Shown here: positions 1 through 64,000 of the stretch, one piece after another | How the letters are laid out: each line of letters starts with the position of its first letter | How positions within the stretch are numbered: the first letter of the stretch is position 1 | NCBI GenBank assembly: GCA_028753945.1 | Contig: JAPNXP010000002.1 | Location: 2,480,001 to 2,544,000 of the forward strand | Origin: Hexactinellida sp. DTS-2022 | Lineage: Eukaryota > Porifera > Hexactinellida | DNA length: 64,000 bases | Direction: 5' to 3' | Translations under genes and position numbers: made by a program | Notes under the pieces: generated by a model | What the model saw: only the letters and a program-made list of their open reading frames with translations | What the model was told of the DNA's origin: nothing | The model's database searches: none

Positions 1-2192
1 GGTGACAGTTTTCCTTTAACAGTGGGAAGGTTTTTCCAACAGTCTAACCAGTTAACTACATTTCGTAGGAACAAGATTCGAGAGTCGTCTGGAGATAGAG
101 GTCTAGAAAAGTCGTCATTAAAACGTATACCTTTCCCGACCCAATTTACATTAAATATTTTCCAGATGTCATTAATTAACTTCAGAAAATCAACAGTTTG
201 GTTTTGACTTATACTTTTTCTTTCAAAATTGAGAGCTAATAGGCCAGCTGAAGTTGACTCGTGAAAAATCTTAAGTGCCAAATTTACATTCTGTCTTTCC
301 AAGCTAGATGGCCAACAAGCTTTGGAAGTTAATTTTGGAGCTCGTTTAAAAATGTTGCATCAATCAGATTTGTATAAGGTCCTAATGTCATCAAAAACTG
401 AATAGCATATTGTAGGATACAAAGATTTAGCAAAATTAACAGTGTAAATTTTGAGGCCTGAAGTATTGATCGATACTCTCAAATGACCCTGAGACTCATC
501 TTCAGCAGATTTATGGTTAGGAATGATACAATCATTAAATTTAGGAAAAATAAATACTTTCTCGTAGTCTTTCAAATTTAACCAATTATTTCGAATTGAT
601 TTTAAAATATGGACTATATCAAAAAATAAAATAAGGTCTCTATTTGGGTCACAAGGATGTATAACTTCAGGTAGCAGTGTTTTGTGATTTGGGGAAAAAA
701 GTTTATATAAACTGACATTTAGGGGGTAATTGTCGGTACAGACAGCATCTACATATAAGTTACAACTTTCAATGTCCGAAATTGTCTTAATAACAATGGG
801 TAATAGTGCAGCAGCAGAGCTAGAACCAAGAGGGACTAGCCTTACAATGGTAGAGAACTTAGTCATCAAACTAGATACCATTATAGAAAATACAGTGGTG
901 GGTGGATCTTCCGGATGGTCAATAGAGCCAATAATTCTACCACCTTTATAACTAGCATCGCTACGTATATGAACTTCGTCCATCTGAAGTATAACATGCC
1001 TCTCTAAATCTTTGAATGTAGATGAAAATTCCTTAAGTACACTTAAATATTCACTCTCTAGACCAATTGAATTTTAAATTTTGAGTAGATTACGTTCATG
1101 AGGGAGATTCAAACAATTTGAGGATTGGATTAGCCGAAAACAAGCGGGAGAAATGCCGTGTACCTTGAGGGAAAAAACCTGCGTTGTCACGCTATAACGG
1201 CGCCCATATTTTGAAATTATTAAATATCTCAATTGATCAAGTAGAAACATAATCCCAATCTTTGGTAATAAAGGTAAGTTCTCGATTTGGGGTCCCTGAA
1301 ATTCTATATCTTGATCACTCTGCTCTATTAGTTCAATGGCACTTTGCAACTCAATAATAGCATTTTCAACATGCGTTTTAACGGAGGGTTGACGTTGGTT
1401 GGGTTTGCATTTAGGACTATTAACTGGGAATGTTTCAATTTCTACTAACAATGTCTCAATCTGGCGGATGTCATTAATTTTGTTGAGAGATAAATATATT
1501 TGGCGCTTGTGTTGATCAAAACCATTAATCAATAAACATTGGTCTATTACAAGTGAACATTGAATCGAAGGTTGGTTATCTAAAGTGGTAATTTTTAGAA
1601 AAAACAATGTGTCTGTGTCGGGTTTGTGGACGACCCAACTATTGGAAATATCGATGCAACTCAGCTTATCAACGACATCACTAAGAATACTGATTGAGAA
1701 CTTATCTATGGTAGATGTATTGTCCACTATGCTCAGATTGATTGCAGTTTGAACCATTGTCAGCTCTCTATCGTCTCTCGAAATTCTTTTTGTCTTCTCT
1801 GTAGTGTTTGTCAAGTAGCTGGGGCAGTTCGGGAATATAGTTGGTACAGCAGTCTTCGTCAGGGACACTCGGTCTCGTGGTGCCACAACCATCTTCTGTC
1901 CATCAAAATATTCGAATGTCCTTTCAATGAATTCCTCTTTGAAGTGGAGTATACAAACCTAAGAAATGATTCAATAATTTCGAATGTGAACTAATGATTA
2001 GTTAAAAATAAGTGTATAAGAGTATTTACCTTTATATTTATGTTGTTCTGGTAATCTTCTCTGGGTCTTGGAATGGCTCTAGAGTCTAAACCATTTTTCA
2101 CGAACTTGTTCATCTTTGGGAAAACTAAATACTTTTGTGAAATGTTCTTCTCCCCGATAATTCGAGGTACATCCGGGTACGATACAACTCAT
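1..2192 (-). pseudogene. P-superfamily THAP transposase, copy A (decayed, runs off left edge)
   Basis: This is a transposase of the P-element/THAP9 type, read on the - strand. The THAP zinc finger starts with ATG at 2192 (MSCIVPGCTSNY, then VFSFPKD and KWF). It splices through a 71-bp intron (1959-2029, GT..AG) into VCILHF, the CxxH half of the finger. A linker follows, with the family signature TAVPTIFPNCPSYL at about 1830-1870. The RNase-H-like catalytic half begins at about 1060 (MDEVHIRSDASYKGG near 983, then CTDNYPLNVS and IVHILKSIRNNWLN). These resemble the first two catalytic Asp regions of P transposase. The frame is broken inside the THAP exon near 2080, by an in-frame TAA at about 1074, and near 350-360. 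Past 350 the homology to copy C continues (ERQNVNLALKIFHEST) to the window edge. I call it a dead copy whose 3' end lies outside the window. Confidence 0.85.
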
Positions 2193-2495
2193 CTCGTTGA
2201 AATTGAAGTTAGTATAAGTGTGATAGTAGATAATAATAATAATTTCCATATCGCTTATTTATGTTGAATAGTCAATTTAATCATTATGGGTTATTAAAAA
2301 ATAAATCTCAAAAACACCTCCTTGGCAAATGTTTTATATGTTACAGGTTAGTTTTGCATCTCCTAGACTGTTTTTATATCGAAACAGCTTATGGATGTTA
2401 TATAACGTAATAAAGGAAAAAATTAAATTTGAATATACTAACCAATCCCTGGTCCAAAAAAAATAGTGACTGCCATTGCCTTATGTATAGAATGC
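1..2495 (-). mobile_element. P-like transposon copy A (partial, right terminus only)
   Basis: The THAP transposase pseudogene lies inside this element. The right terminal inverted repeat is degenerate: near 2444-2495 the sequence reads ATCCCTGGTCC, then GCCTTATGTATAGAATGCAATGG. This aligns with the right end of copy C, which ends GCCTTATGTATAGTAGGCTATG. The left terminus is not in the window, so no target duplication can be checked. It is more diverged than copies B, C and D. Confidence 0.65.
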
Positions 2496-2570
2496 AATGG
2501 TTTTTGCTTATTTTGCCATGTTCTCTGTGTCTAAGTTTATTAACTCAGTCCATGGCCTACTATAATACGG

Positions 2571-4713
2571 CATAGCCTACTCTATATATGGCCTGACAGT
2601 AGATATACCAGGGATGCACAAGAAGATGGGAAATTTTAATTTTTTAATGTTTTCTATATTGAACTACGAAGTTCTTTATGGGTCTCTAGGTCGTAAACAT
2701 AACTCAGCAGTGCTAGCCCGTGATTAATATTAGCTGTAATGAGAACGGTGATTGGATTTTCATAATTTAATAGTAATAATAAACACAAACAGTACAATTT
2801 CTAATATTAATATACAGTAAATAATACACAATTATTTGCTTTCCTTCCTCTCTCCTCTTTCTCTCTCTGGCTCTAGCAGTGACACACGACACACTTAACT
2901 ACATAATAGAAATAAGAATAACAGAGTAATACAAATCATGGTAAATACAAATAAGTAGACACATAATTAAGAGAATTTCTTAAATTTACGCTTTCTATAC
3001 TTTTTGAAAGAACCAGCGAGTTATAATTCTTAACTTTGTTTGCAAGAAAGCAATTCGCTGCAGTAAAGACGAGATTCGATAAGATGTTCCAACTAAACAC
3101 ACCACAGCTAATTCAAGTAGACTTTCAAATACTTGGATCACGATTATCACTATCTTCCGAATACATCAACGTGAGTTCAACTAGTAATAATTATTCTAGA
3201 AGGTCCACTTACAAGCTTCGCCATCAGCTCTTTATTGTTTTCGATGGCACTAAAGGTCTTCCATATAACAAATATGGAATTCAAAACTGGCTCAAATGGA
3301 TATTTAAGTCCGCCACGGTCCGTTAGCTGCAGAAGTTTATACTAGGAGTCCAGGTCTAAATCAAGGAGAAATTCTTTATCAATTGTTAGCATATGTACAG
3401 ACATGACACGGTTTTGTTTGTTTCAGGTACTGATGGACAGTATAGCCTGCAATAAAGGCTAATGATTGAAGAAACTGTGAACCACATTCAATTGTTGATA
3501 AATCATTAATCGCATCAAGAAATGGCTCCAAATTGAACTCACCATCAGTAGTGGAATACGCTATACGTAGAAGAAATGACTTAACAAATTACTGAATACA
3601 TAGATTGAAAGGAAGTGTCTTGTTGGTCAGCAAATATGTTTCATTATGCTAGAAAGTTTAAGTCGACGCTCGGTTCAAGGATTTGAAGATAGGAGATGTG
3701 ATAATTAGAACCCGACATCATACGGTATAGACCGAAATGGTCCAAGGGATCCGTCTGTAGAAAGGAGGACAAGACAACAGATATGTAAAGCCACAAGATT
3801 GAGTCAAATGATTGGTAATTTGTGGTAAGGTAATACAAGCATGTCTAAAGCTGGTGTATGTTGTTTACTCAGTTTGCCAAATTTTTCTGGTAAAGTTTGC
3901 CAAGCATCTAACCAAAACTACATGAGTCAAAAATTGAAATCGCTCGTCATTAAAAGTCAAAGGTCTAGAGAAATTATCGTTCAAACGTATTCCTTTAAAT
4001 GGTGTGTTAAAGCAAGTTCCTGCAAAACAGATTCAATTTCTCGGATGTCACTAATTGCAGCAATGGAAACGGATATACTCTGTCTATTAAAATAGGCTGA
4101 GGTGGATAAATAAGCATTGATTTCAAGGTACAAATCTACTGAGATATTTTGTCAGCCATTTTAGCGAGAACAAACGTTGTGTTGCTTTCATTACGGAACC
4201 ACACCAACCAACTATAAGGTCAAGAAATCAAGGTTAACTTATCTTTCAAGTCCTGTGGAGAGTTGACCACAAACTTCTCTTTCTCTTGACTCTCGGATCT
4301 CAAGCTGAGTTGTAGTGTTTGGTTCATCAATTCTTCCTCTTTTGCATCGTATGAGAAGCGATTCCGTTTGTAAGGTTTGGATGAGTAATATGCTGGGCAG
4401 CCGGGCAGTAAACTTGGTACAGCGCCTTCCTTCAGCTTTGGAATTGCCCGCGGTACTTCAGTAAATGTACCATCTCCTCTTGGGAATTGGAAAGTGTAGT
4501 CTATGTTTTCTTTCTGAAAATGGTTGTTACATACATAGACCACCTTCAGAAAAAATATGACCAATAATTGTATATATTTCAAGAATATTTCTAATTAATG
4601 TGGTATTATTTTTGAAATTAAATATTGTGGTTGGATAAATATTACCATCTTCTCCTTCATCCTTGGTCCACATTTTCTAGGTTACTGTCAGGCCATATAT
4701 AGAGTAGGCTATG
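2571..4713 (-). mobile_element. P-like THAP transposon copy B (internally deleted, 7-bp TSD)
   Basis: Inverted ends read CATAGCCTACTCTATATATG at 2571 and the reverse complement of that sequence ending at 4713. A 7-bp direct repeat AATACGG flanks both sides (2564-2570 and 4714-4720). The ends continue with a diverged GACCAGGGATG-like block, as in copies C and D. At 2.1 kb it is about half the length of copy C (4.2 kb), so it is a deletion derivative. It sits inside an older repeat: the flanks read together resemble another P-like terminus, CATGGCCTACTATA. Confidence 0.85.
3000..4600 (-). pseudogene. THAP/P-like transposase remnants of copy B
   Basis: Read on the - strand, the second THAP half-site exon is recognisable at 4220-4582. 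VYVCNNHF is preceded by an AG acceptor, and the signature GAVPSLLPGCPAY follows, then a Glu/Lys-rich linker. The first THAP exon is missing. A jump then leads to the C-terminal catalytic region at about 3640-4080 (FNDERFQFLTHVVLWLDAW, then LQTDPLDHFGLYRMMSGSN). In related copies that block carries DPLEHHFGLYR, the probable catalytic Glu region. The C-terminal tail at about 3000-3325 (LTDRGGLKYPFEPVLNS) matches copy C. The RNase-H core with the first two Asp residues has been deleted, and several frames are needed, so this copy cannot encode an active transposase. Confidence 0.8.
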
Positions 4714-6890: not shown

Positions 6891-8897
6891 GTTTAAAATA
6901 CCTGGAATTTGCATAGACAATATTGGAAAGCAAGTTGGAAGACGACAAATATTTAGTGTTACCTTTGTTTCTAGGCCGTAATTTTGTTCACTCTTTCTAT
7001 ATATTCTATTTAATCTAGTATTAATATCGGCTTGACATCTGTTGACATTTCTTTCTTAGAATGTGCGAGATATAAATATATAATTAAAATCAGCATACTT
7101 TAATTGTATAAGATTTATGTGTATTACTGGTTGTTAAAAGTGGCTAAACTTCGCAATACAACCTATTTTGAATATCCCAAAACATCAAAATGCATAATTA
7201 ATTTCTTGACTTTTGATACTATTTTAGTGGCTTATTCTTATAAAAACGTTATAGTAGGGTCCTAGTATAGTTTTATACTATAAGTGCACACTATTGAATT
7301 CGTTCTGATATAGTTCCCGCTTGCCGTTCGGCCGTATGCAATAGCCTGACGACACCATTGGTGGTAGAGATTTGAAATTTAGACAAGGGATAGAGAATTT
7401 CCTGGGAGATGATCACCTCGAATCCTGAATTCTCAATTTTGACTTTGTTCGTCAGTTATATCGAAATTTGTGTTCTGATCTAGTGACTCATCGATAATTC
7501 TAATTAGTAATTGAAAATATAGTGGTTGTATTCTCCTAAGTATGTTCTTTCTATATATCCATTAAAATGAATAGGTCGCTAATCAATTCTACGTTTTATT
7601 AACGGTTTACGTAAATCAGCAATATTCTCCATATTGTAATTATAATTACACTATAGTATATTTTGAACATAATACATAAGCCTACTATGCTGCTACATAA
7701 AAACTGTTATTTGATTGGTTGTAAGTGAAGCTGTGATTCATACAAAATTAAAACACTTGGAACATTTTGCAGTTGATGATGTCAATTCTATTATTCAAAA
7801 CAGTAAAGTAAATAAACTTCACTTATTTCTATTTGTACTAGTTAATCTTTCTTTATTAATTAAAGATTTGAAATCTTTACAATTCAAACATTAATTTAAG
7901 TATATTAAATTAAGATGAATTGTAATTTCATAATTGAAATTATATTTGAATCAAACTTTGGGTGCGGCTTGTGCAACCAGAAGAAGCACATTCTCATCCC
8001 GTCTGTGAGGGTTTTTTTATTCTAGTTCTTAGGCTTTCGATGTATTAGAATTTTGGGGGATAATTCATGTTGTTAACATGGGCCATATTTATATTTTCTA
8101 TAATTATCCATGACATTCTACTTCCGGCTACTTACTTTCTGTCCAATGATAATAAGATTACTGTTTAGCATCACTCTTTGTTGTATTCTGATGTGTTTTT
8201 TCAAGCGATGTTGTTATTTGTCCTAAACCTATAAAATATCGTCAACCATATACATATCCATTACACATGAGTCAAACTGAAAACAATTACATGTTTTTGA
8301 TTTAGAACAGGCCCACTCATATTAACCACAGTGGCGCAAACAGGGGTGGGGGGGGGGGGGCGCGTGGGGCATGCGCCCCCCGGAAAAGTTGAAGGGGGGC
8401 AACATTAATGGTGCGGGTGTTACCGTGCCCTCTGGATAAAAAAATAAAATGTTCAATATAATTTAGTATAGTAAAATATACGTATAATTCATTAAAAAAT
8501 GTCATTTGTTGCAATCAATTTTTTTCTGGGGGGGGGGGGGCAAGCCGCCCAGAATCCCAAAAGATCGCTCACTACACTCGCTCCGCGCCCCCCAACTTTA
8601 TCCTCAGACTTGTACAACTTTGAGCCTATGATTAACCACACAATAATATTAAATTATTGTTGAGAATCTAATAATGGTTGAATATGTGTGAATCTAAAGA
8701 CTATAACTTACTTGAATTATTTGTTTATTTAGCTTCTATTGATAAGTTTCCATATTGTTAATTGAGAAAATTTGGTCTCAAAATCTATCCAATGTCTACT
8801 TACTTTCTTTACTTTGTCTATATTTTTACTCATTTTATTATTGTGATTTTATTGTTGCGATTACTTGCTTGGTTAATTTGTTATTAACATACGGTAG
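6891..8897. other. Non-coding stretch before importin exon
   Basis: AT-rich sequence with no recognisable gene. The only structure noted is a repeat-like block at 8331-8630 with G runs of 12-14, a CGCTCGCTCCGCGCC-type patch and a GCCTATG end. It is probably intronic sequence of the importin gene, since the missing upstream importin exons must lie further left. Confidence 0.5.
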
Positions 8898-9199
8898 GTC
8901 GAATGTGCGAAGAATTACCAGATGTTGTTATCCAACATGCCACTCTACACAATCTTTTGCAAGCATTACTCACTGGTTTAGGTAGTGTACCCAGGGTTGC
9001 TACAAATACATGTTGGGCATTTATCTCTCTCGCCGAGGCAGCTTATAACATTGTTCTTTCTGGTGAGGATGATGACCCTGAAACATATGCCTTGTCCGAA
9101 ATTTACGAGGAGCTTGTTACCAAGTTACTTAATTGTACCGAAAGAAATGAATCCACGGTTTCTAATTTAAAGAGTGCAGCTTATGAAACACTCATAGAG
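8898..9199 (+). CDS. KPNB1: Importin subunit beta-1, internal exon
   Basis: This exon encodes part of the HEAT-repeat solenoid of importin beta, the nuclear-import receptor that binds importin alpha or cargo, RanGTP and nucleoporins. The frame reads GRMCEELPDVVIQ, then LLQALLTGL, PRVATNTCWAFISLAEAAY and, at the end, SAAYETLIE. Each matches the corresponding block of animal importin beta (GRICELLPEAA, PRVASNVCWAFSSLAEAAY, RSSAYESLMEI). The acceptor is the AG at 8896-8897, since an in-frame TAA at 8885 excludes a longer exon. The donor GT is at 9200-9201. The exon begins one base into a Gly codon and ends in phase 0. The frame is intact, so this is a live gene rather than a retrocopy. Confidence 0.93.
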
Positions 9200-9306
9200 G
9201 TAGGAGTTTTATATTTTTACCATGATTTTCTGAGGTTTGCAATCCAATCCACTCATAATGGCTTTACTTTGTCCGTTATAATTATATATATATATATATA
9301 TATATA

Positions 9307-10353
9307 CAGTCTACGCTGCTTAATTGGGACACGTTTGTTCCAGGCCTCTTGTCCCAATTAAGCGGAGTTCCCAATTACCCGAAGATTTTATGTAAAGTAG
9401 GGATCTATTCTCGATTTACAACAATTTCAGTTTAAAAACTGTTTTTACAATTCCTCCAAAGCCTGCGTTCCGTGAAGCATGTATCGACCGAGTACTCGGC
9501 CTCGGCCAAACTCGACCACTTTTTCGAACTCGGCCGATCCAGGCCAATGTATTTAATCCAAAAATATTGACTTAAACCATGGGATAACAACACAGTTATC
9601 AAACTTTATATATAGATGAAGTTACTTTAGTGTTAATAATTGTGATTAAAAGCACTAAATAGTATCATTAAAATATATTGAGCACTGCTAATATCCTTTC
9701 AAAATAAACATTAATTTAATCTTCTATGTCTTCATCACTGTCATACATTCTGTCCTAAAATTTCACTTGCTGCAAGTTTGCTATCGCACAAATTTGAAAT
9801 ATTATAATACAATAGCATACAATATCATTGAGGGAAATATTTTAATAGCAAACTCAATATTTCACTAAAATAGGAACTCGTCCGAAAACTCGGCCTCGGC
9901 CTCGGATCCGGCCAAAAATATTTAAACTCGGCCTCGGCCTCGGCTCGGCCAAAATTCTGAACTCGGTCGATTCATGCCGTGGAGGCTACTCACACCCAGT
10001 GTATGAGCCTTAATATTCAGTGGATCATGGACCTTTTGGAAATATACCTGAACCACAAGGTCATATTATCTGCTAAATTTTTATTTACGGAATCAATAAG
10101 TAAATAACCCTATTTCGATATTTCGATATTTTGTTACGCCTTTTTCAGAATTTATCAAGATTATTAGAATTTGTTCTGATCAATCTGAATTTTATTTAGA
10201 GCGAGCACCTATTCTGAACCCAATTTGTTGGGTTTGTCCCGATTAACCAAACTTTTTAGTTTAGCTTCTATGGAATTGATTCAGTTCTTGGGAGTTGTCC
10301 CAATTAAGCGGTTCTCCCGATTATCCGATGTCTCAATTAAGCGGAGTATGCTG
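9307..10353. mobile_element. Pogo/Tc1-like non-autonomous element, TA target
   Basis: The ends are CAGTCTACGCTGCTTAATTG on the left and the inverted counterpart CAATTAAGCGGAGTATGCTG on the right. The dinucleotide TA sits directly outside each end (9305-9306 and 10354-10355). The internal sequence repeats the CCCAATTAAGCGG motif near both ends, typical of subterminal inverted repeats. No transposase frame is seen. Its termini are related to the element at 60930-61302. Confidence 0.8.
9471..9981. mobile_element. Nested MITE with CTCGGCCTCGGCC-rich ends
   Basis: The ends CGTGAAGCATGTATCGACC and GGTCGATTCATGCCGTGG are imperfect inverted repeats. Inside each end lie repeated CTCGGCC units. It is inserted inside the pogo-like element and has an AT-rich interior without coding potential. 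Confidence 0.55.
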
Positions 10354-21789: not shown

Positions 21790-24700
21790 ATGCCCAACAG
21801 TTGTGCCGTTTTCGGATGCAAAATCAACTGCAACGACGATCACCGTGTCCCAATTTTTTGACTATCTACGAAATAGGGATTACAATCCCGGACATATTTT
21901 GCAATCCCGGGATTTCGGGATTAGACACAGAAACCCTAGGGTGCCTGCTAAACCACCTTCACACTTTAATATTTTGTTACATGCCTTGCATTGAGCCAGC
22001 CTACCACATACAGATCTCAGAAAATGTTTCCATATTTCTGCAACATTAAAATTTTGAAATTTAGTACTTTCAGCCATAGGTAGATAATTTCATATTTATA
22101 GAATTCTATAATATTAGTCATAATTTATTAAATAGGAATCTTCAATTCATCGTTTGTTAAATTTTAACAACAATGACCACAAAGATTATCATTGAACACT
22201 GTATCCAAATAAGAGTTGATAAGAAATTTTATGCATCTTACAAGTGTATGATTGTTTGTCTAGCTAGGGAATCTAATTAAATATGTTTGGATCATACAAG
22301 CAAACCTGTCCCATTCTTTGACTGCAATTTAAGCCATTAGATACCAAGTTCGGAATCCCGGGATTGAGAAATAATCCCGGGATTGGAAAACGGGATCGGG
22401 ATTAAAAAAACAAATCCCTGGATATAATCCCGGAGGTGAAATGGATCAGGATCCCGGGATCCCGGGATTGTAAGCCCTACTACGAAACCAGATGACCTAA
22501 GACACAGATGGCTTCAGGTTCTTCGGAGAGACGATTTACAATCATTCAAGGGGGTTTACGTGTGTGTAAATCATTTTCGCCAGGAGGATGTTGAGTATAC
22601 TCACAAAGTTCCAAACGGAGATGGTACTTATCGTGAAATTCCAAGAGTCAACCAAAGCTAAAAGATGGTGCCGTTCCAGTTTATCTACCAGGACCCTTCA
22701 ATCTGTTCTCAATATATTAGCTCCAAAAAGCGCAGATGTGTGTCACCTACCTCAAAAGATGAGGAAATGTTCAATGAAGCATTAACACTTAGCCTGGCAT
22801 CTCAGAGCGAAGAGAAAGAGAAATATCAGATCAATTGTTTCCAGGATATCCAAGCTAAGTTACCTTTGCTTTCCCTACCTAAAACATGGTCTTTATGGTA
22901 CCCAGATGATCATAGTCTAATATATATGCTACGTCTACTGACAGAACACAATATCATTGTCAACACCTATATATTAGTGTCCTTCGATTTGTCAGTTAGA
23001 GCTTATCTTAATGGAGAAATTTACCAATTCCAATTTGCTCAATCAGCGATATACGACACCTTGAATCAATTCTCTGTGAGATTTCTATATCCCCTCGTCC
23101 TGTTCTGTCCACTGAATCTGTTTCAAAGACCGTTAGTGAGATTTTATCTTTAGCGAAGGACAATATCCAACTACTCATTAACAAAGTACTTTCATCTAAT
23201 GGTGAATTAGAGATAACTTATTAACGATTCCCCCGAAATATCCAGGCTTCAATTCATCCAATGTCAGCTTGAAAACAGTATTGTACCCAAAACAGGCGGA
23301 GGTACAACATCCTCACACAGGTTATGGCACTTAAAGCAAATTTAATTTCACCAGCATGTTATAAGTATCTTCAACAAATGGCTTGTCTATCTCTGCCTCT
23401 GCCTCTTCATTCGGACTTGAGTGTGAATTCTTTCCTTTCCTCAAGCAAGCGACAAATTCTTTCACTGAAGCTGAGAAACATATCGTTATGCTAATGGACG
23501 AAATTCACGTAAAATCTGATGTCACATATAAAGGAGGCAAGATATATGGTTCTAGTCTAAGTCCAGAAGATCCAATAAAGACTGTATTCGCTATTATGGT
23601 ATCAAGTCTCCAGAAAAAATGGTCTACTATAGTTCGTCTATTACCATGTGCCTCTCTTTCCGCTGAGAAGATATTCCCCATCATACTCGCTTGTATTAAA
23701 TATATCGAAACTAGTGGTTTATGTGTGGATGTAATCTCAACAGATAACTATCCTCTTAACGTCAAGTTATTCAAACTATTCTCTCCTGTTGGTAAGCTTG
23801 AAACATGTGTACCTCATCCTTGTGTTCCTAACAGGCCTCTGTATCTCACTTCGATTTCGTCCATATTTTGAAATCTGTACGAAACAATTGGCTAAATCTG
23901 AAGTCCAGTTATAAGTGTTTTTTCTACCCCGATTTTGACGATATTGGATTTCATTATTGTTCATTTCCTTTAAAGGTGTGCTGCGCTTCTTTCGAAGATG
24001 TACGCGCCCTTTATAGCTCAGAGAAGGAGAGTCTTGCAAAATTTGCCCCGCGGTTGACATTTAAATCATGTTATCCTTCTGTATTGGAACGCCAAAATGT
24101 CAAATTAGTCCTGAAAGTAATCCATGAGTCCACGATTGCTGCTCTAGCTCTCCAAAATGATCAACGTTGCAGTGAGTTGAAAACAAACACCTCTAGTTTC
24201 GTCAAAATTCTACTCACGTTATGGAACATGTTTAATGTAAATGTTCCATATAAGCATATTCGTTAAATGATTCTTCATGTCGCCCTTTCACAGTTAATGA
24301 CGAACGATTTATCTTTTTAACAGGATAGTAAATTGGCTAGAGACTTGGGAATCACACTCTTTGAAACATGGCAAATTGAGCAAGCAAACTTTTACAAGCT
24401 TAAGACACGCGTGCATTGTACTCCCTCAAATAGTTAATTATCTAACTGGACAGTGTGGATATGCTTACATTTTAACACGTTTCTTACAAACAGATCCACT
24501 AGAGCACCATTTCGGACTTTATCGGATGATGTCTGGATCAAATTACCATGTTCCGTACCTTCAAATTTTAGAAGCTGAACGTCGTTTGAAGATCTCCAAT
24601 CTATTAACTCTATTTTCTAATACCAACACTCAACTATCCAGCCAGATTTCTATGGAGGAATTTATTCAGTCTTTCTCTCCCATTTATAGCGTACATACAG

Positions 24701-25234
24701 ATACAGAAATTGACATTGATCCTTTTCTTGATGCTCTATCAGATGTATCAGCCATTGAGTGCGATACCCCAACACTCCAGTCACTAGCTTTTATTGCTGG
24801 GTATGCTGCCTACCAATACCTTAAGCATTCTTCACCGTGTTTAATATGCCGAGATCTTTTAATTATCGACAAAGATATTCTAGTAGATGAATCCTTCGAA
24901 TTCCGGTACCAACTTTGCAGCTTTCTGATCGTGGTGGTCTAAAGTATCCTTCAGAGCTTGCATTGGAATCTTTAATCATTGTTTGGAAATTCTAACTATA
25001 ATCCAAAGTAATAGTGAACTTATGTCCCTGTTGATAGAAGGTCAAACTAGAAAGATTTTAGTAACACTTGCTTTTGGCTCCCTAACTGGTCTTGATAGTG
25101 GTTTTGAAGGTTGGAGAACTACTTGTCCTTCTTGTAATGTGAAAGGTTCAACCATTCTATCAAGTCTCGTTCGGAGTGAGGCAAATTGTCTAATTCAAAT
25201 CTTGTCAAGAATTACAATTCGAGCCTTAAATTAA
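21790..25234 (+). pseudogene. THAP-domain P-superfamily transposase of copy C
   Basis: The zinc finger starts at 21790 (MPNSCAVFGCKINCN, then HRVPIF). It is broken by a TGA at the position of a conserved Arg and by a 606-bp MITE, then resumes at 22488 (PDDLRHRWLQVLRR, VYVCVNHF). GAVPVYLPGPFN is the family linker signature, in a shifted frame near 22670. The catalytic half follows: MDEIHVKSDVTYKGGKIYG near 23500, STDNYPLNVKLFKLF near 23740, HILKSVRNNWLN near 23870, ERQNVKLVLKVIHEST near 24090, and DPLEHHFGLYRMMSGSN near 24495. These correspond to the expected Asp, Asp and Glu regions of P transposase. The C-terminal tail includes SDRGGLKYPSELALESL near 24930. At least five frame changes are needed, so it is inactive. 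Confidence 0.88.
21874..22479. mobile_element. hAT MITE inserted in the THAP exon (8-bp TSD)
   Basis: The element reads TAGGGATTACAATCCCGG at the left and the inverse CCGGGATTGTAAGCCCTA at the right. A perfect 8-bp direct repeat CTACGAAA flanks it (21866-21873 and 22480-22487). Removing it and one repeat restores the THAP reading register. Internally it is full of AATCCCGGGATT subrepeats near the ends. It is 606 bp and non-coding. Confidence 0.92.
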
Positions 25235-28997: not shown

Positions 28998-30020
28998 GTG
29001 ATCAGGTATTGCGCTAAGGACTGTTATGGCACAATTGGCAAGACAACATTACATATTCTCGAAAAACTTCAACATTCTATTCAATCAAATTTTCCTGTTT
29101 CTGATCGAAGCGTTGTTCATAATGTACAGTCGTATCTTTGTGCTACATTGCAAAGTTTGCTTCGGAAACTCAATAAAGATGATACATTAAAGCTTTCCGA
29201 TTCGATTATGCATTCTCTTCTTTACATTCTTCAAACTTCTGCTACTCTAAGCGGTAGTATTCAAGAAGATGTCATATTGACTATTGGAACTTTGATCGAA
29301 GTGCTACATTCTGATTTTAATAAATACATGGAGTCTTTCAAACCGAGTTTGTTGGCAGGATTACAAAATTATAGAGAATATCATGTTTGCATTGCATCTG
29401 TTGGTGTTGTTGGAGATTTATCTAGGGCATTAGGCGAGAATATTTTACTTTATTGTGATGATCTCATTAAATGTCTCCTAGCTGGTCTTACGGAATTATC
29501 TCTATTTCGAGATGCAAAACCCCATATAATTTCTGCTTTGGGCGATATTGCTTTAGCTATTGGTCCAAATTTTAAGAACTATATTGAGACAGTGTTACAA
29601 TTATTGTCTCAGGCATCACAGATTGAAGTAGATAGGAAAGATTACACACTTATTGAATATATGAATGAATTAAGAGACAGTTGCTTAGATGCATATACTG
29701 GCATTATTCAAGGTTTGAAAGGTCCTGATCCAAGAGAAGTTAATCAAGAAGTACACCTTGTATGGCCTCAAGTCCCATTTATTCTTGCTTTTATTGACTA
29801 TATAGGGAAGGATCCAGTTCGCACAGATTCAAACATATGTTCTTGTTGTGGGATACTTGGAGACCTTTCAATATCATTTGGTCAGAGCATGTCTCAATTT
29901 CTGAAAGATAAACAGGGCATTGAAAAGATTCTCTTCGATGGTCGTAATTCTGAAACACAGAAAACTAAACTATATGCAAACTGGGCTAATAATACCATTA
30001 GGAAATTCAATCAGAGTTGA
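28998..30020 (+). CDS. KPNB1: Importin subunit beta-1, terminal exon
   Basis: This exon encodes about 340 residues, the C-terminal HEAT repeats of importin beta and the stop codon TGA (30018-30020). Blocks matching animal importin beta include VIRYCAKDCYG, LCATLQSLLRKLN, DVILTIGTLIEVLHSDF, KYMESFKPSLLAGLQNY, CIASVGVVGDLSRALGENI, GDIALAIGPNFKNYIE, YMNELRDSCLDAYTGIIQG, and a WANNTIRKF-type tail. The frame is open throughout and the end coincides with the family's usual C-terminus. The acceptor AG is at 28996-28997. In the cell this region helps form the superhelix that wraps the importin-beta-binding domain of importin alpha. I place the 3' UTR between the stop and the Helitron starting at 30171; no clear poly(A) signal was identified. 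Confidence 0.95.
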   Translation: MIRYCAKDCYGTIGKTTLHILEKLQHSIQSNFPVSDRSVVHNVQSYLCATLQSLLRKLNKDDTLKLSDSIMHSLLYILQTSATLSGSIQEDVILTIGTLIEVLHSDFNKYMESFKPSLLAGLQNYREYHVCIASVGVVGDLSRALGENILLYCDDLIKCLLAGLTELSLFRDAKPHIISALGDIALAIGPNFKNYIETVLQLLSQASQIEVDRKDYTLIEYMNELRDSCLDAYTGIIQGLKGPDPREVNQEVHLVWPQVPFILAFIDYIGKDPVRTDSNICSCCGILGDLSISFGQSMSQFLKDKQGIEKILFDGRNSETQKTKLYANWANNTIRKFNQS

Positions 30021-56690: not shown

Positions 56691-57014
56691 ATACTTATTG
56701 CAGATATAATATAAAATATAGTGAGACGTTCAAAACAGGTAATCACTCAGAAATTCTTATATACCAGCGTCTCAAAACAATATATAATAGCACATCTATG
56801 TCTCTGGTTTAGCTTCACTATCGTCTCAAAATTGTTAGAATCTTTAATTCATAATGAAAAAGTGATATTAAGTAGAAAATTACTTATATAGTAGTGTCTC
56901 TAAATACACATCCATAGTTTGTTAATACAATTTCTCAAAATATCACCATATAATTTCCAATAGCACATCCATGGTTTGGTAATACAATGTTTCAAAATCT
57001 CACACGTGTCAAAA

Positions 57015-57300
57015 GGGGGTGCCTGCACATGTCAGAATTTAGAGTTATGATTTTGTCAGAATAATCAGTTCTGCACTTGTCAGAATGGAATTTTTAGAGT
57101 TCTGCACATGTCAGAATGAGATTTCTAGAGTTCTGCACATGTCAGAATCGGTTTTCTTGATTTCTGCACATGTCAGAATGGGTTTTTCAGAGTTCTGCAA
57201 ATGTCAGAGTCGGTTTTCTTGATTTCTGCACATGTCAGAATCGGTTTTCTAGATTTCTGCACATGTCAGAATCGGTTTTCTACATTTCTGCACAAGCACT
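57015..57300 (+). repeat. 31-bp tandem array, MULE-type left terminus (orphan copy)
   Basis: It begins GGGGGTGCCTGCACATGTCAG, then about nine units of the CTGCACATGTCAGAATCGG + TTTTCTAGATTT type. It is nearly identical in order and variants to the array at 61824-62145, which fronts the MULE F transposase. Here no MULE coding sequence follows; the RAG1/Transib-like fragment begins about 160 bp downstream. Confidence 0.85.
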
Positions 57301-57458: not shown

Positions 57459-58460
57459 GGGATTGAAACTCCTCTAATAAATTTGATCAAAACACTAGCT
57501 GCGAAAGAAGATGTTGATTGTGAGACTATCGCTTCGTATGGTCTTCAGTTAGTTTCTAGTTCAGAACATGACATAACAACTGCTTCCTTTTGCAAAGAGA
57601 TCATTTCTACAGGATCTTTTGGTAAATCAGGCCAACGACTCCCAATTGACAAATCTGCATTCCTTTTAGACCAATTGGAAATCGGGAAGAGAAAATACAT
57701 CGAGCTAATAAAACTATTAAAATCAGAAAATATCATATTTCCTCCGTATCCAGAAGTTTCTCGTTACCGTACAGAAATCACACTGCTCGTTTGTATAAAG
57801 AGTGACTGTGACATCGGTAGAAGAATCCCATATGGTAGAATTTTACAGCAGACCGTTTCTAGATTGCTTGGGATACTTCCCAAATTAGCCGCAGACCGAT
57901 TTCCCCTGAGCGTAAGATATCTGATGGGTTGGATGGTTCTGGCTCCCACCAAATCTATAACCAGCTCCAACCTAGTCCAAGTCTCAGTTCAAAAAATTTC
58001 ATTTTATACGCTTTTAAAATTATCTCTATTCAGGACTGTACTGGCTGTGAAATTTGGCTCAACACAATACCGAATTCCCCTTTTCAAGTCAGGCCTATTG
58101 CCTTAGTTGAGATGAAAGAAAACGAAGATAATGTGAGATTTCTAATGGATTCCTATATTTATCCTGATACATCAATCATCAAACAGTATGGGATTGAGTT
58201 TGACCAAGGAATAATTAATGTAAAAGTGCTCGTACCATGTTTGATGCGAAAATGTCAGGCATACTAATTGGTCCAGGTGGTGCAAAATGCCAACTATGCA
58301 CTGCTACCGCTCATCAAATAAATGATTTAGAGATAGTTAGATCAGGATATCCCATGAACAGGACCATTTCGGCGGCCAAAAAATATTTTCTCAAGTTGAT
58401 AGGGATGAATTTCTCTCACTTCCATCACAGAAGAGATTCGGATTGACACACGAACCGGTT
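57459..58460 (+). pseudogene. RAG1/Transib-like transposase core fragment
   Basis: This resembles the catalytic core of RAG1-like/Transib transposases, DDE enzymes related to the V(D)J recombinase. In order: KYIELIKLLKSENIIFPPYP (about 57690-57755), DIGRRIPYGRILQQTVSRLL (about 57812-57870), and, after a frame change, RKISDGLDGSGSHQIYNQ (57911-57965). The last corresponds to the first catalytic Asp region (RAG1 CDGMGD). Then IPNSPFQVRPIALVEMKE (58066-58120; RAG1 KPNSELCCKPLCL), and, after a one-base frame change, MFDAKMSGIL (58237 on, second Asp) with GGAKCQLCTATAHQINDLE (RAG1 VYICTLCDATRLE). A third change leads to RDEFLSLPSQKRFGLTHEPV, where satellite begins at about 58460. The C-terminal part with the catalytic Glu is missing. 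RAG1-like versus Transib is unresolved. Confidence 0.7.
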
Positions 58461-60435
58461 TTTTCAAAGTCATTCACAAAAATATAGGGATTTTGTAGTT
58501 TTTATGCTCTTAATGAAATGAATTAATTGTAATTTCAGGGGTACTGTTTAAACAATTTACACCAAACTCAATTTTTCTCATCAATAGAAACAGCCAGCAA
58601 CGTCTGAAATTCGAAATTACTTATTTTGGGTTTTTTGAAAGTAATTCACCAAAATATAGGGTTTCTGTAATTTTAAGCTCTTTAATGAATGTAAATTAAC
58701 GAATTGGATTTTCAGTTGTTCTGTTTGAACAATTTACACGAAATTCAATTTTATCAGCAAAAGAAACAGCTAGCAAAGTGCTAAACTCAGAATTTCTTTT
58801 GGGGTTTTTTTAACAGTATTCACAAAAATATAGGATTTTTGTTGTTTTCAAGCTTTTAATTGAATGGGAATGAACGAATTGTAATTTCATGGCTACTGTT
58901 TAAACAATTCACACGAAATTCAATTTTGCTCAGCAAAAGAAACAGCTAGCAACGTCATAAAACTTCAGAGTTTCATATTTGGTATTCTTTTAACAGTATT
59001 CTCCAAAATATAGGGTTTTTGTTGTTTTTAAGGTCATAAATGATTATACAAGATCGAATTGTAATTTCAGGGGTACTGTTTGAACAATTTACACGAAACT
59101 CAATATTTTCATCGATATTAACTGCCAAGCAACGTGTAATCTCAGAATTTCTTATTTGCGATTTTTTGACAGTATTCACCTAAATTGGCTTTTTGTTCCT
59201 TTAAGTTTTAGACGTTGCTGGCAGTGTCTAGTGATGAGAAATATTGAGTTTGGTGTAAATTGTTTAAACAGTACCCCTGAAATTAAAATTGGCTCATTTT
59301 AATTCATTTAAGACCTTAACTCAGAATTTCCTATTTGCGATTTTTTGACAGTATTCACCTAAATTGGGTTTTTGTTCCTTTTAAGGTCTTAAATGAATGT
59401 AGATGAACGTATTGTAATTTCAAGGGTACTGATTGAACAATTCTGACGAAACTCAATTTTTCTCATGAAAAGAAACGGCCAGCAACGTATTAAATTCAGA
59501 ATTTCTTATTTGGGGTTTTTTGAGAGTCATTCATCAAAAATATGGGTTTTAGTTCTTTTTAAGCTCTTAAATCAATGTAAAGGAACGAATTGTAATTTCA
59601 GGGGTACTGATTGTATAATTTTGACGAAACACAATTTTTCGCTTCAAAAGGAATTGCTGGCAGCGTCCTGAAAGCTCCGAATTCTATATTCATGAGTTCA
59701 GCCATTCACCAAAAAATGGTTTTTGATGTTTTGAGGATCTTAAATGGTTGGGAATATACGAAATGTAATTTCAGGGGTACTGTTTGAACACTTTTGACGA
59801 AAAATAATTTTTAGCATCAAACTAATCAACCGGCAACGTCATTAAACTCTAAGATTTAACAAATAGGAGTTTTTTGTCAGTCAATATTCCGAAAATGTGT
59901 TTTCTTGTTTTAAGGTCTTAAATGAATGTAAATGAACGAATATTAATTCCAGGGGTTCTGTTGGACACTTTTGAGGATATTTGATTTTAGCATCAAAATA
60001 AAGAACCTTCAACGTCCTTAAACAAAGGATTTATCAATTTGGGAGTTTTTTGACAGAGATACAACCAAAAATGGTTTTCTTGATTTTATGGTCTTAAATG
60101 AATGTAAATTAACGAATTGTAATTCCAGGGGTTCTGTTGGACACTTTTGACGATATTTGATTTTAGCATCAAAATAAAGAACCGGCAACGTCCTTAAACA
60201 AAGGATTTATCAATTTGGGAGTTTTTTGACAGTTTTCTTGATTTTATTGTCTTAAATATATGTAAATTAACGAATTCTAATTTCAGGGATGCTATTTGGA
60301 AACCTGACGAAAAATAATTTTTATCATGGGAAACATACCGTCAACGTCATTAAACCACAAAATCTATCAATTTAGGACTTCTTTGATAATCATTTACCAA
60401 AATTGTCGTTTTCTTGTTTTTAATCTTTTAAAGAA
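58461..60435 (-). repeat. About 180-bp satellite, block 3 (- orientation)
   Basis: About ten units of the same satellite as 46006-47755, inverted. The first units (58461-59700) are a variant subfamily with TTCACCAAAATATAGGGTTTT, GTACTGTTTGAACAATTTAC and ACGAAACTCAATTTTTCTC. Later units (59700-60435) match the block at 46-47.7 kb closely. Two near-identical neighbouring units (59930-60060 and 60100-60230) point to recent local duplication. Interrupted by the Helitron at 60436. Confidence 0.9.
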
Positions 60436-62392: not shown

Positions 62393-63696
62393 ATGGAATA
62401 TACTTTGGACGAGTACAAACGTTTTAAGGGATAAGTCTTCTCAACTGTAGACGGTCATAAATATGTCAAGTCCAAAATTAGTGAAGAACACATTTACCTC
62501 AAGTGCGCTTTATTTAGGGGTAATTGTAAAGGAACAGGAAAACTCAATAAAGAAACTAACGAAATTACGCCTCTAAAACATCACAATCACCAATTAGAAG
62601 AATACAAAACAGATATCTACAAGCTGAAAAATAAATGCAAGACACTTGCAAAACACACTCAAACAAATCTTAGGAAAGTATTCAACGATGTAACGAGAAC
62701 TGACCCTTGTGCACTCGAAATTTCATTCACCGAATGCGAATCAGCGATGTATCGTGCGAGGAGAACATTTCAGCCAAAGATACCCCTGAATGCATCTGAA
62801 TTTTGTGGAATGCTACCTACAACAACATTTGGAGAATTCCACCAATTTTCTGTATCATCTGGTGCTGACATTGGTGTCGTCTTCTTTTCGAACGAGATGA
62901 GTAACTTGTTAGCTGAGGTGACCAACATACACTTTGATGGCACATTTTTTACAGTACCCTCTCAATTCAGTCAGTTATGGACCATATTCGTTGCTGTGGG
63001 AAGACACACATTACCCGCGATACTTTGTCTCATGACTGCGAAAAGTGAAGAACTATATAAAGCGGTATTAGAAACTATCAACGCTAATATACCTCAGTTC
63101 AAGCCTCAAGCTGCAATGTCAGATTGGGAACCTGCAGCTAGGAATGCAATAAAGGAAGTATATCCTCAAATAGCAGTTTATGGCTGCTGGTTCCACTACA
63201 CACAGCGCATCTGGAGGAAAACACAGAAGCTCGGATTGAGTCATTCATTCAAGACCAATATTCAAGTCCAAACATTCTTAAGACAACTGATGGCCATCCC
63301 TTTTCTTCCAGCTTCTCTCATCAAGCCAACTTCTAGTTTCCTTCAAATACCAGCGGTAAGTGATTCGGAGAAAATAAAGTTGGAACAACTGCAAAAGTAT
63401 TACAGAAAATATTGGATAAGACGAATAACACCTGACCAACTCTCTATCAATGAACTCAATATCACTACAAACAATGGGGCAGAAAGTTACCACTCGAAAC
63501 TAAATCTATTATAAAAATTAGCCATCCCAGGATATGGACATTCATGGCGTCTCTCAATGATATTATACGGGACACAGACAACGATACAGGTCGCCTCAGC
63601 TCTGAGGTTTCGAAATTTCCTATTTATCAAGTTTTCTTCACTTTGGGAAAGTTGAAACCTATCAATGAATGCATCAGTTGCATCTTTAATAGTTGA
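62393..63696 (+). pseudogene. FLYWCH/MULE transposase, nearly intact
   Basis: A Mutator-like transposase. The N-terminal FLYWCH-type finger (62393-62600) reads MEYTLDEYKRFKG, TAA (62432-62434), VFSTVDGHKYVKSK, YLKCALFRGNC and ITPLKHHNHQLE. A helical linker (LRKVFNDVTRTDP, SAMYRARRTFQPKIP) leads to the MULE domain. There I see NIHFDGTFFTVPSQFSQ (first Asp), LWTIFVAVGRHTLP, AAMSDWEPAARNAI (second Asp region), VYGCWFHYTQRIWRK, and LNITTNNGAESYHSKLN. After TAA at 63512-63514 a one-base shift continues the family tail (ISHPRIWTFMASLNDII, GRLSSEV) to TAG near 63696. Only one stop and one frameshift separate it from a full-length reading frame of about 430 residues, so it decayed more recently than copy E. 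Confidence 0.88.
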
Positions 63697-64000
63697 TTTA
63701 GAACTGAGGAAGTCGAGGGCTTCTTGTTATTCATTTTAACTGCTAAATATATGATGTATTTAATCATTAATTAATTTTGCATAAAATTTATGATTCCTTA
63801 ATTAAAAATGTACAATTCTCCATGGTTTAAAGTCAATAGATGACCCCAGTCGAGCCTTTTCGCGCATCTAGATTACTTTATAATTTGAAGGTATCATCAT
63901 AACCTTTCATTTTAAATGTATAAACGAATTGCTCAAGATTGCTCTCAAAAGTTCTTGAACAATATTGAAAATTAGTAAATGCGTCCGAATCATAAAATTC
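63697..64000. other. Non-coding tail of the window
   Basis: AT-rich; no gene, no array matching the 31-bp MULE repeat, and no satellite seen up to the window end. Confidence 0.4.

Follow-up and report, generated by a model that had tools for sequence, protein, structure and literature searches.

A stretch of 64,000 nucleotides from the glass sponge Hexactinellida sp. DTS-2022 (contig JAPNXP010000002.1, positions 2,480,001 to 2,544,000; hereafter the window) contains a candidate recombinase near its end, which is, with high confidence, a dead and truncated copy of a cut-and-paste DNA transposon that belongs to the RAG1/Transib superfamily and there to the type known as Subgroup I Transib. Related copies elsewhere in the genome are apparently intact, and these elements are filed here as a glass-sponge branch of this known kind, with unusually readable ends that resemble the recombination signal sequences (RSSs) of vertebrate RAG1. 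The assignment was made because two features, a region equivalent to alpha11-alpha12 of RAG1 and asymmetric ends, fit the published description of Subgroup I; the elements are not assigned to the RAGL transposons because they hold one gene.

A decayed copy recognized through intact relatives

An initial annotation of the window had proposed a RAG1/Transib-like core at 57459 to 58460, based on five collinear protein blocks in three successive frames, and had considered chance unlikely. All five blocks are present at those sites on the forward strand and in that order (positions from the open reading frames, ORFs), although four overlapping frames, rather than three, hold them in the window ORF list (57459-58487). 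The block DGLDGSGSH (57923-57949, within the ORF at 57863-58264) contains the first catalytic Asp, presumably the RAG1 D600 position; it aligns to both HzTransib and RAG1L, and DGLDGSG is invariant across the 13 aligned family members. The block PNSPFQVRPIALVEMKE (58070-58120) carries a conserved Glu, MFDAKMSGIL (58237-58266) the second catalytic Asp, and GGAKCQLC (58276-58299) two Cys of the ZnC2 site, with the Glu, Asp and both Cys columns invariant in 43 aligned sequences. The last block, RFGLTHEPV (58434-58460), lies in the alpha11-alpha12-like region, and the element homology ends there.

The blocks match one uninterrupted protein, encoded by the single 616-codon frame of a sister copy, L026. 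The homologous stretch begins at 57294 rather than at 57459 and runs to 58459 on the forward strand, representing approximately residues 1-355 of the 616 in the L026 ORF and about 130 bases upstream (blastn identity 92.7% to L026 4120-5319; tblastn E 1e-153 with the L026 protein). This collinearity with one uninterrupted protein, combined with the tblastn score, excludes chance as the source of the blocks.

The window copy is dead. Relative to L026, it differs by 54 substitutions in 1166 aligned bases and by six deletions, including four frameshifting ones (three of a single base and one of 10 bases). It stops near residue 355 of 616 and consequently has neither the catalytic Glu nor the HKxLAH zinc ligands nor the C-terminal tail; a search of the window found no 3' part of the element. 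When the four window fragments were searched singly against Pfam, no RAG1 or transposase family was found, and the window fragment that was tested against solved structures reached HzTransib only at E 0.79. Judged by these searches, the fragments alone are too weak to classify, and it is through the intact relatives that the family is recognized and that a RAG1/Transib-superfamily recombinase in an invertebrate genome, as initially annotated, is borne out.

The 5' non-coding part of the element lies at 63595-64000 on the reverse strand (blastn 90.9-92.8% to positions 1-756 of the L026/L027 elements) and continues beyond the window, reaching a CACAGTG end after a further 363 bases (extended coordinate 64363, locus L037). 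On the inverted side the element breaks off at its position 756, and at 57294 it resumes at position 759. The simplest reading is therefore that an inversion of about 6.3 kb, with a breakpoint inside an old insertion, separated the 5' part from the gene part; alternatively, the two fragments may derive from different copies.

Several repeats and genes were noted around these fragments. By eye, a short tandem array (unit ttctgcacatgtcagaat plus about 20 bases) occupies window 57000-57290, directly before the broken copy, and repeated units sharing the motif ttcacaaaaatatagg fill 58460-59600, beginning where element homology stops. A MULE transposase with a FLYWCH zinc finger (62435-63511, forward strand) lies within the segment that is inverted relative to the Transib-like element.

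Copies and anatomy of the family in the genome

The genome searched comprises 112 Mb in 18 contigs. With a middle fragment of the window copy as query, at least 150 family matches were found, spread over 16 of the 18 contigs; this is a lower bound, as 150 matches were scored of 337 candidates. A total of 27 loci (L009-L035) were read, mostly picked for long frames, so that counts of intact copies do not represent a random sample. Within the first 20 of these (L009-L028), 13 contain uninterrupted stop-to-stop frames of 711-757 codons, and the full-length copies with a catalytic Glu that the initial annotation had suggested seeking were found. The RNase H-like DDE core is complete in the family (Asp, Asp and Glu, together with the ZnC2/ZnH2 ligands).

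The elements consist of terminal inverted repeats starting with CACAGTG and, enclosed by them, one gene of approximately 710-750 codons. Copies that retain both ends and an uninterrupted frame measure 3.0-3.8 kb, apart from L009, which contains an insert and measures 6.1 kb. In L010, for example, the frame takes up 2139 of 3078 bp, with 939 bp remaining. A RAG2-like gene, which had also been suggested as a target, was not seen in the elements read, and no second frame of at least 250 codons was found inside any of the 17 bounded elements of L009-L027.

Identity between L026 and twelve other representatives is 46-60%, indicating many subfamilies, whereas the closest copies, L009 and L010, are 99.8% identical, which points to recent movement. 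The family is large and was probably active until recently.

Relationship to Transib, RAG1 and RAG1L proteins

A profile of the sponge family scored 156 bits against solved HzTransib, 67 against amphioxus RAG1L and at most 58 against RAG1, and HzTransib was the best solved relative by both sequence and structure. The proposal that the core is RAG1-like proper is therefore not upheld. HzTransib (PDB 6pqn, 6pqx), the source of which is presumably Helicoverpa zea, shares with the sponge family the catalytic core, the CxLC motif, HKLLxH and SEExxEAxNK; because it carries an aligned CxLC, the GGAxCxLC block, which by eye had looked closer to RAG1-like than to classical Transib proteins, is not specific to RAG1. 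What did hold of the RAG1-like character is part of the domain make-up, in features that are absent or weak in HzTransib-type proteins: an alpha11-alpha12 region, more of the nonamer-binding domain (NBD) in structural alignments and, in some subfamilies, a zinc knuckle.

A classical Transib of the HzTransib type (Subgroup II), for which the rank of HzTransib as best solved relative speaks, is an unlikely identity for these elements given the remaining parts of the protein. The CxxC-to-LH distance is 65-66 residues in 19 sponge ORFs, 64 in mouse RAG1 and 60-67 in RAG1L (n=8), compared with 30-31 in HzTransib-type proteins (n=32), and helices are predicted within the interval. On this spacing, the alpha11-alpha12 (RAG2-binding) region is present at RAG1 length in the sponge family (65 residues vs 30), while HzTransib lacks it. 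The N-domain and the C-terminal tail are likewise unlike those of HzTransib-type proteins, and the sponge sequences, together with P0016, form a separate clade with 100/100 support, outside RAG1/RAG1L. The tree is unrooted, and long-branch attraction may account for the grouping of Transib and RAG in it (91.1/90).

The N-terminal domain follows the pattern RKPLSxLT..RxRL..., which resembles the NBD of RAG1 with modest support. Aligned alone with hhalign, this domain gave P 1.6e-4 against four RAG1/RAG1L sequences and P 0.45 against nine HzTransib-type sequences. In structural alignments, 17 of the 30 RAG1 rows begin at model residue 89-109 and include the NBD, compared with a control in which 4 of 30 rows begin before residue 198; for the solved HzTransib chain, the alignment begins no earlier than model residue 164 and leaves out the NBD part. 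Such a domain is not exclusive to Subgroup I, since an NBD equivalent has been reported in both Transib subgroups (PMC9435367).

A zinc knuckle of the form CX2CX4HX5C occurs at the C-terminus in L009-L013, L019, L020, L021 and L026, with another spacing in L022 and a further knuckle in L031; L025 and L027 are cut short. The exact RAG1L-type motif CX2CX3GHX4C occurs in P0026 (the only one among the proteins P0001-P0058), P0059 and P0060; as an aside, P0059, P0060 and P0061 have 29-34% identity and branch near the sponge clade.

Several results weigh against these equivalences. The isolated RAG1 NBD structure (3gna) was matched only at E 0.022, the hhalign probability for the N-domain is only 24% and comes from four RAG sequences, and once the DDBD is included the N-regions of the sponge (P 0.0023) and HzTransib-type (P 0.0029) proteins lie at the same distance from RAG. 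Structural alignments that take in the NBD have a root-mean-square deviation of 7-14 A, which a hinged domain would produce, as would a poor match. The knuckle pattern was not found in L014-L018 and L024, and where present it is mostly CX2CX4HX5C rather than the RAG1L form. Additionally, the tree has no outgroup and no Subgroup I or bacterial references.

A true RAGL transposon of the ProtoRAG kind, with RAG1L and RAG2L genes between its ends, would account for the NBD-like domain, the RAG1-length alpha11-alpha12 region and, in some subfamilies, the knuckle resembling that of the RAG1L C-terminal tail. Amphioxus ProtoRAG (BbRAG1L-BbRAG2L) does have a similar core and a C-terminal zinc motif. 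The sponge elements differ from it in having no RAG2L, RING or N-terminal zinc regions: Pfam detected no RING or RAG1 N-terminal domain in any of five ORFs, while amphioxus RAG1L (P0062) gives RING in the same library. A genome search for RAG2 with PF03089 returned nothing, and control genomes were equally silent, so that the result carries no information on the genome outside the elements read. Combined with the one-gene anatomy, a core that scores Transib far above RAG1L (156 vs 67 bits) and a clade outside RAG1/RAG1L, these observations make a RAGL transposon highly improbable.

The Subgroup I Transibs of Tao et al. 2022 (PMC9435367) resemble the sponge family in having no RAG2L, a retained alpha11-alpha12 region and asymmetric ends, and have an NBD equivalent to which the NBD-like sponge domain may correspond; they are described as standing closer to RAG1L than the remaining Transibs do. 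Glass sponges are unnamed in the main text of that study, and the likeness was judged from its description rather than from sequences. The tails differ: most sponge knuckles have five residues ahead of the final Cys, and several subfamilies have no knuckle.

Relatives in a second glass sponge

Of the 61 protein-search matches, the 12 named relatives are all from Oopsacas minuta, a glass sponge. Xenoturbella bocki, also considered as host, was set aside on this result together with genome searches that gave 16 homeodomain matches and no wnt match (the wnt control was silent as well); glass sponges reportedly lack wnt (PMC10280926). No paper linking RAG1-like genes with Xenoturbella was found in a literature search. 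The Oopsacas sequences pair with different subfamilies of the present genome (100/100, 90.6/98 and 83.1/99), and because they are interleaved in this manner, several subfamilies are probably older than the divergence of the two hosts, repeated transfer being the alternative. No report of Transib or RAG1 in glass sponges was found among the papers listed in literature searches, Repbase and supplements being outside their scope. The initial annotation had emphasized that each new lineage matters; this is fair, and is weakened by the prior description of RAGL transposons in cnidarians and a microalga and of Transibs in ctenophores, fungi, plants and bacteria (PMC9435367).

RSS-like ends, target duplications and a second box

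The suggested RSS-like termini and 5-bp target duplications were both found. CACAGTG stands at both ends in 21 of the 22 two-ended elements, with one end of L031 reading CACATTG, and between near-identical copies homology stops at CACAGTG or at most 6 bases beyond it, except at the inner break of L012/L013. As the first end search took the duplication as a criterion, the count was redone with exact heptamers alone in 26 loci; identical 5-bp flanks were present in 18 of 27 end pairs, against 0.04 expected. The looser search had given 21 elements with both ends, 18 of them with exact duplications (L017 has one mismatch, L023 and L034 no duplication), and with L035 the totals become 22 and 19. 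Ends were found on one side only in L015, L019 and L030, and none were found in L033.

Inward of the heptamer, both ends of an element have a second box in common, in many cases GGAAATAGG with an A/T tract after it, and at the 3' end this box lies 9 or 10 bp deeper inside the element than its 5' counterpart does. Of the 15 representatives, 11 have this offset as the sole best match; it is tied in L018 and L031 and ranks second in L010. In L035, which was inspected after the rule was set, the offset is 10 with a different box. Across 14 representatives, the boxes of an element's own two ends agree at 9.9 of 12 positions, compared with 7.4 for cross-subfamily pairs and 5.4 for shuffles. Boxes that differ between subfamilies and agree within an element indicate that both ends changed in step. 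Two results count against a general offset: L020 does not have it, and a position-wise pooled test of the 9-bp shift over all subfamilies was borderline (reached by 99 of 2000 permutations).

A search with a 70-base 3' end, in which 40 places were scored of 71 candidates, returned 10 places at 96-100% and 30 at 80-83%. Four of the latter were read as non-autonomous copies of 1017-1064 bp with a longest open stretch of 52-74 codons, two of which (L040 and L041) are 98.9% alike. All four have CACAGTG ends, exact 5-bp flanks (a criterion of the search) and an offset of 9. As these copies share ends, flanks and offset with the coding elements, the ends appear sufficient for mobilization in trans.

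The ends resemble those of several known systems. CAC-starting ends, 5-bp duplications and asymmetric bipartite ends are described for ProtoRAG/RAGL elements as well (PMC8289069, PMC7204232), and the RSS heptamer consensus is identical to the sponge CACAGTG (PMC8289069). An offset of the same size, with 4/13-bp spacers, is known from algal RAGL (PMC9435367). As with the 12/23 RSSs of vertebrate RAG1, the spacing of the second element differs between partners by about one helical turn, and an NBD-like domain is shared. In contrast to the vertebrate system, the sponge offset is 9-10 bp rather than 11, the box is GGAAATAGG-like with an A/T tract rather than ACAAAAACC, and the family is a mobile element with no RAG2 in the copies read.

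That the family is instead a RAG1-like recombinase domesticated by the host to act on its own loci would suit several intact frames and some seemingly old, Oopsacas-interleaved subfamilies, and is scarcely credible for a multi-copy family on 16 of 18 contigs with its own ends and target duplications, near-identical copies, non-autonomous derivatives and a dead window copy.

One further pattern was noted by eye: the knuckle-less L014 and L016-L018 seem lower in A/T just after the heptamer than L010, L012, L021, L022 and L031, a comparison confounded by descent.

Proposed mechanism and significance

For the Subgroup I-type transposase, a mode of action can be proposed by analogy. The RAG1-like DDE core would nick at the heptamer and release the element through a hairpin reaction, as in HzTransib and RAG, and insertion with a 5-bp stagger would produce the 5-bp duplications. 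The heptamer and a few flanking bases would be read by the catalytic core and, where present, the zinc knuckle, while the second box would be contacted by the N-terminal NBD-like domain. With the 3' box about one helical turn (9-10 bp) further in, a synaptic dimer would have to combine a near-box end with a far-box end, in a manner similar to the 12/23 rule. It is further proposed, tentatively and as a possibility well short of even, that the many glass-sponge sister subfamilies of this RAG2-free RAG1-type transposase changed their second boxes in step at both ends, against a constant CACAGTG heptamer and one-turn offset; such a history would amount to a natural, RAG2-independent, roughly 10/20 version of the 12/23 rule, in which NBD-like domain and box co-evolved into many separate recognition pairs.

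The origin of the vertebrate 12/23 rule is disputed, in part because the second element of amphioxus ProtoRAG ends differs from the RSS nonamer (PMC8289069). The present set includes 15 diverged representatives with no RAG2 in the element; their ends combine an RSS-identical heptamer with a readable second box at a near-constant one-turn offset, and in nine of them the frame is uninterrupted over 712-749 codons. These diverged, apparently intact, RAG2-free subfamilies are of specialist interest, as the set makes three questions testable: whether the NBD-like domain reads the second box, whether one-turn pairing operates without RAG2, and what role the zinc knuckle has. Overall, the findings fit a published view in which RAG2L arrived later than the NBD, the alpha11-alpha12 region and the asymmetric ends.

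Other features of the window

Decayed copies of a transposase whose RNase H domain is TNP-like (PF21787), presumably of the P element/THAP9 type, are located at window 1-4000 (reverse strand) and 22662-25231 (forward strand), and frames related to them adjoin an element in L019. Importin subunit beta-1 exons were found on the forward strand at 8888-9358 (by eye) and 28998-30017 (PF25574, E 1.5e-80), approximately 20 kb apart. Among the matches listed for importin beta-1 (120 of 381), two reach 92 and 85% identity and none is an Oopsacas importin; the other 118, which include those of named animals, are at most 50% identical.
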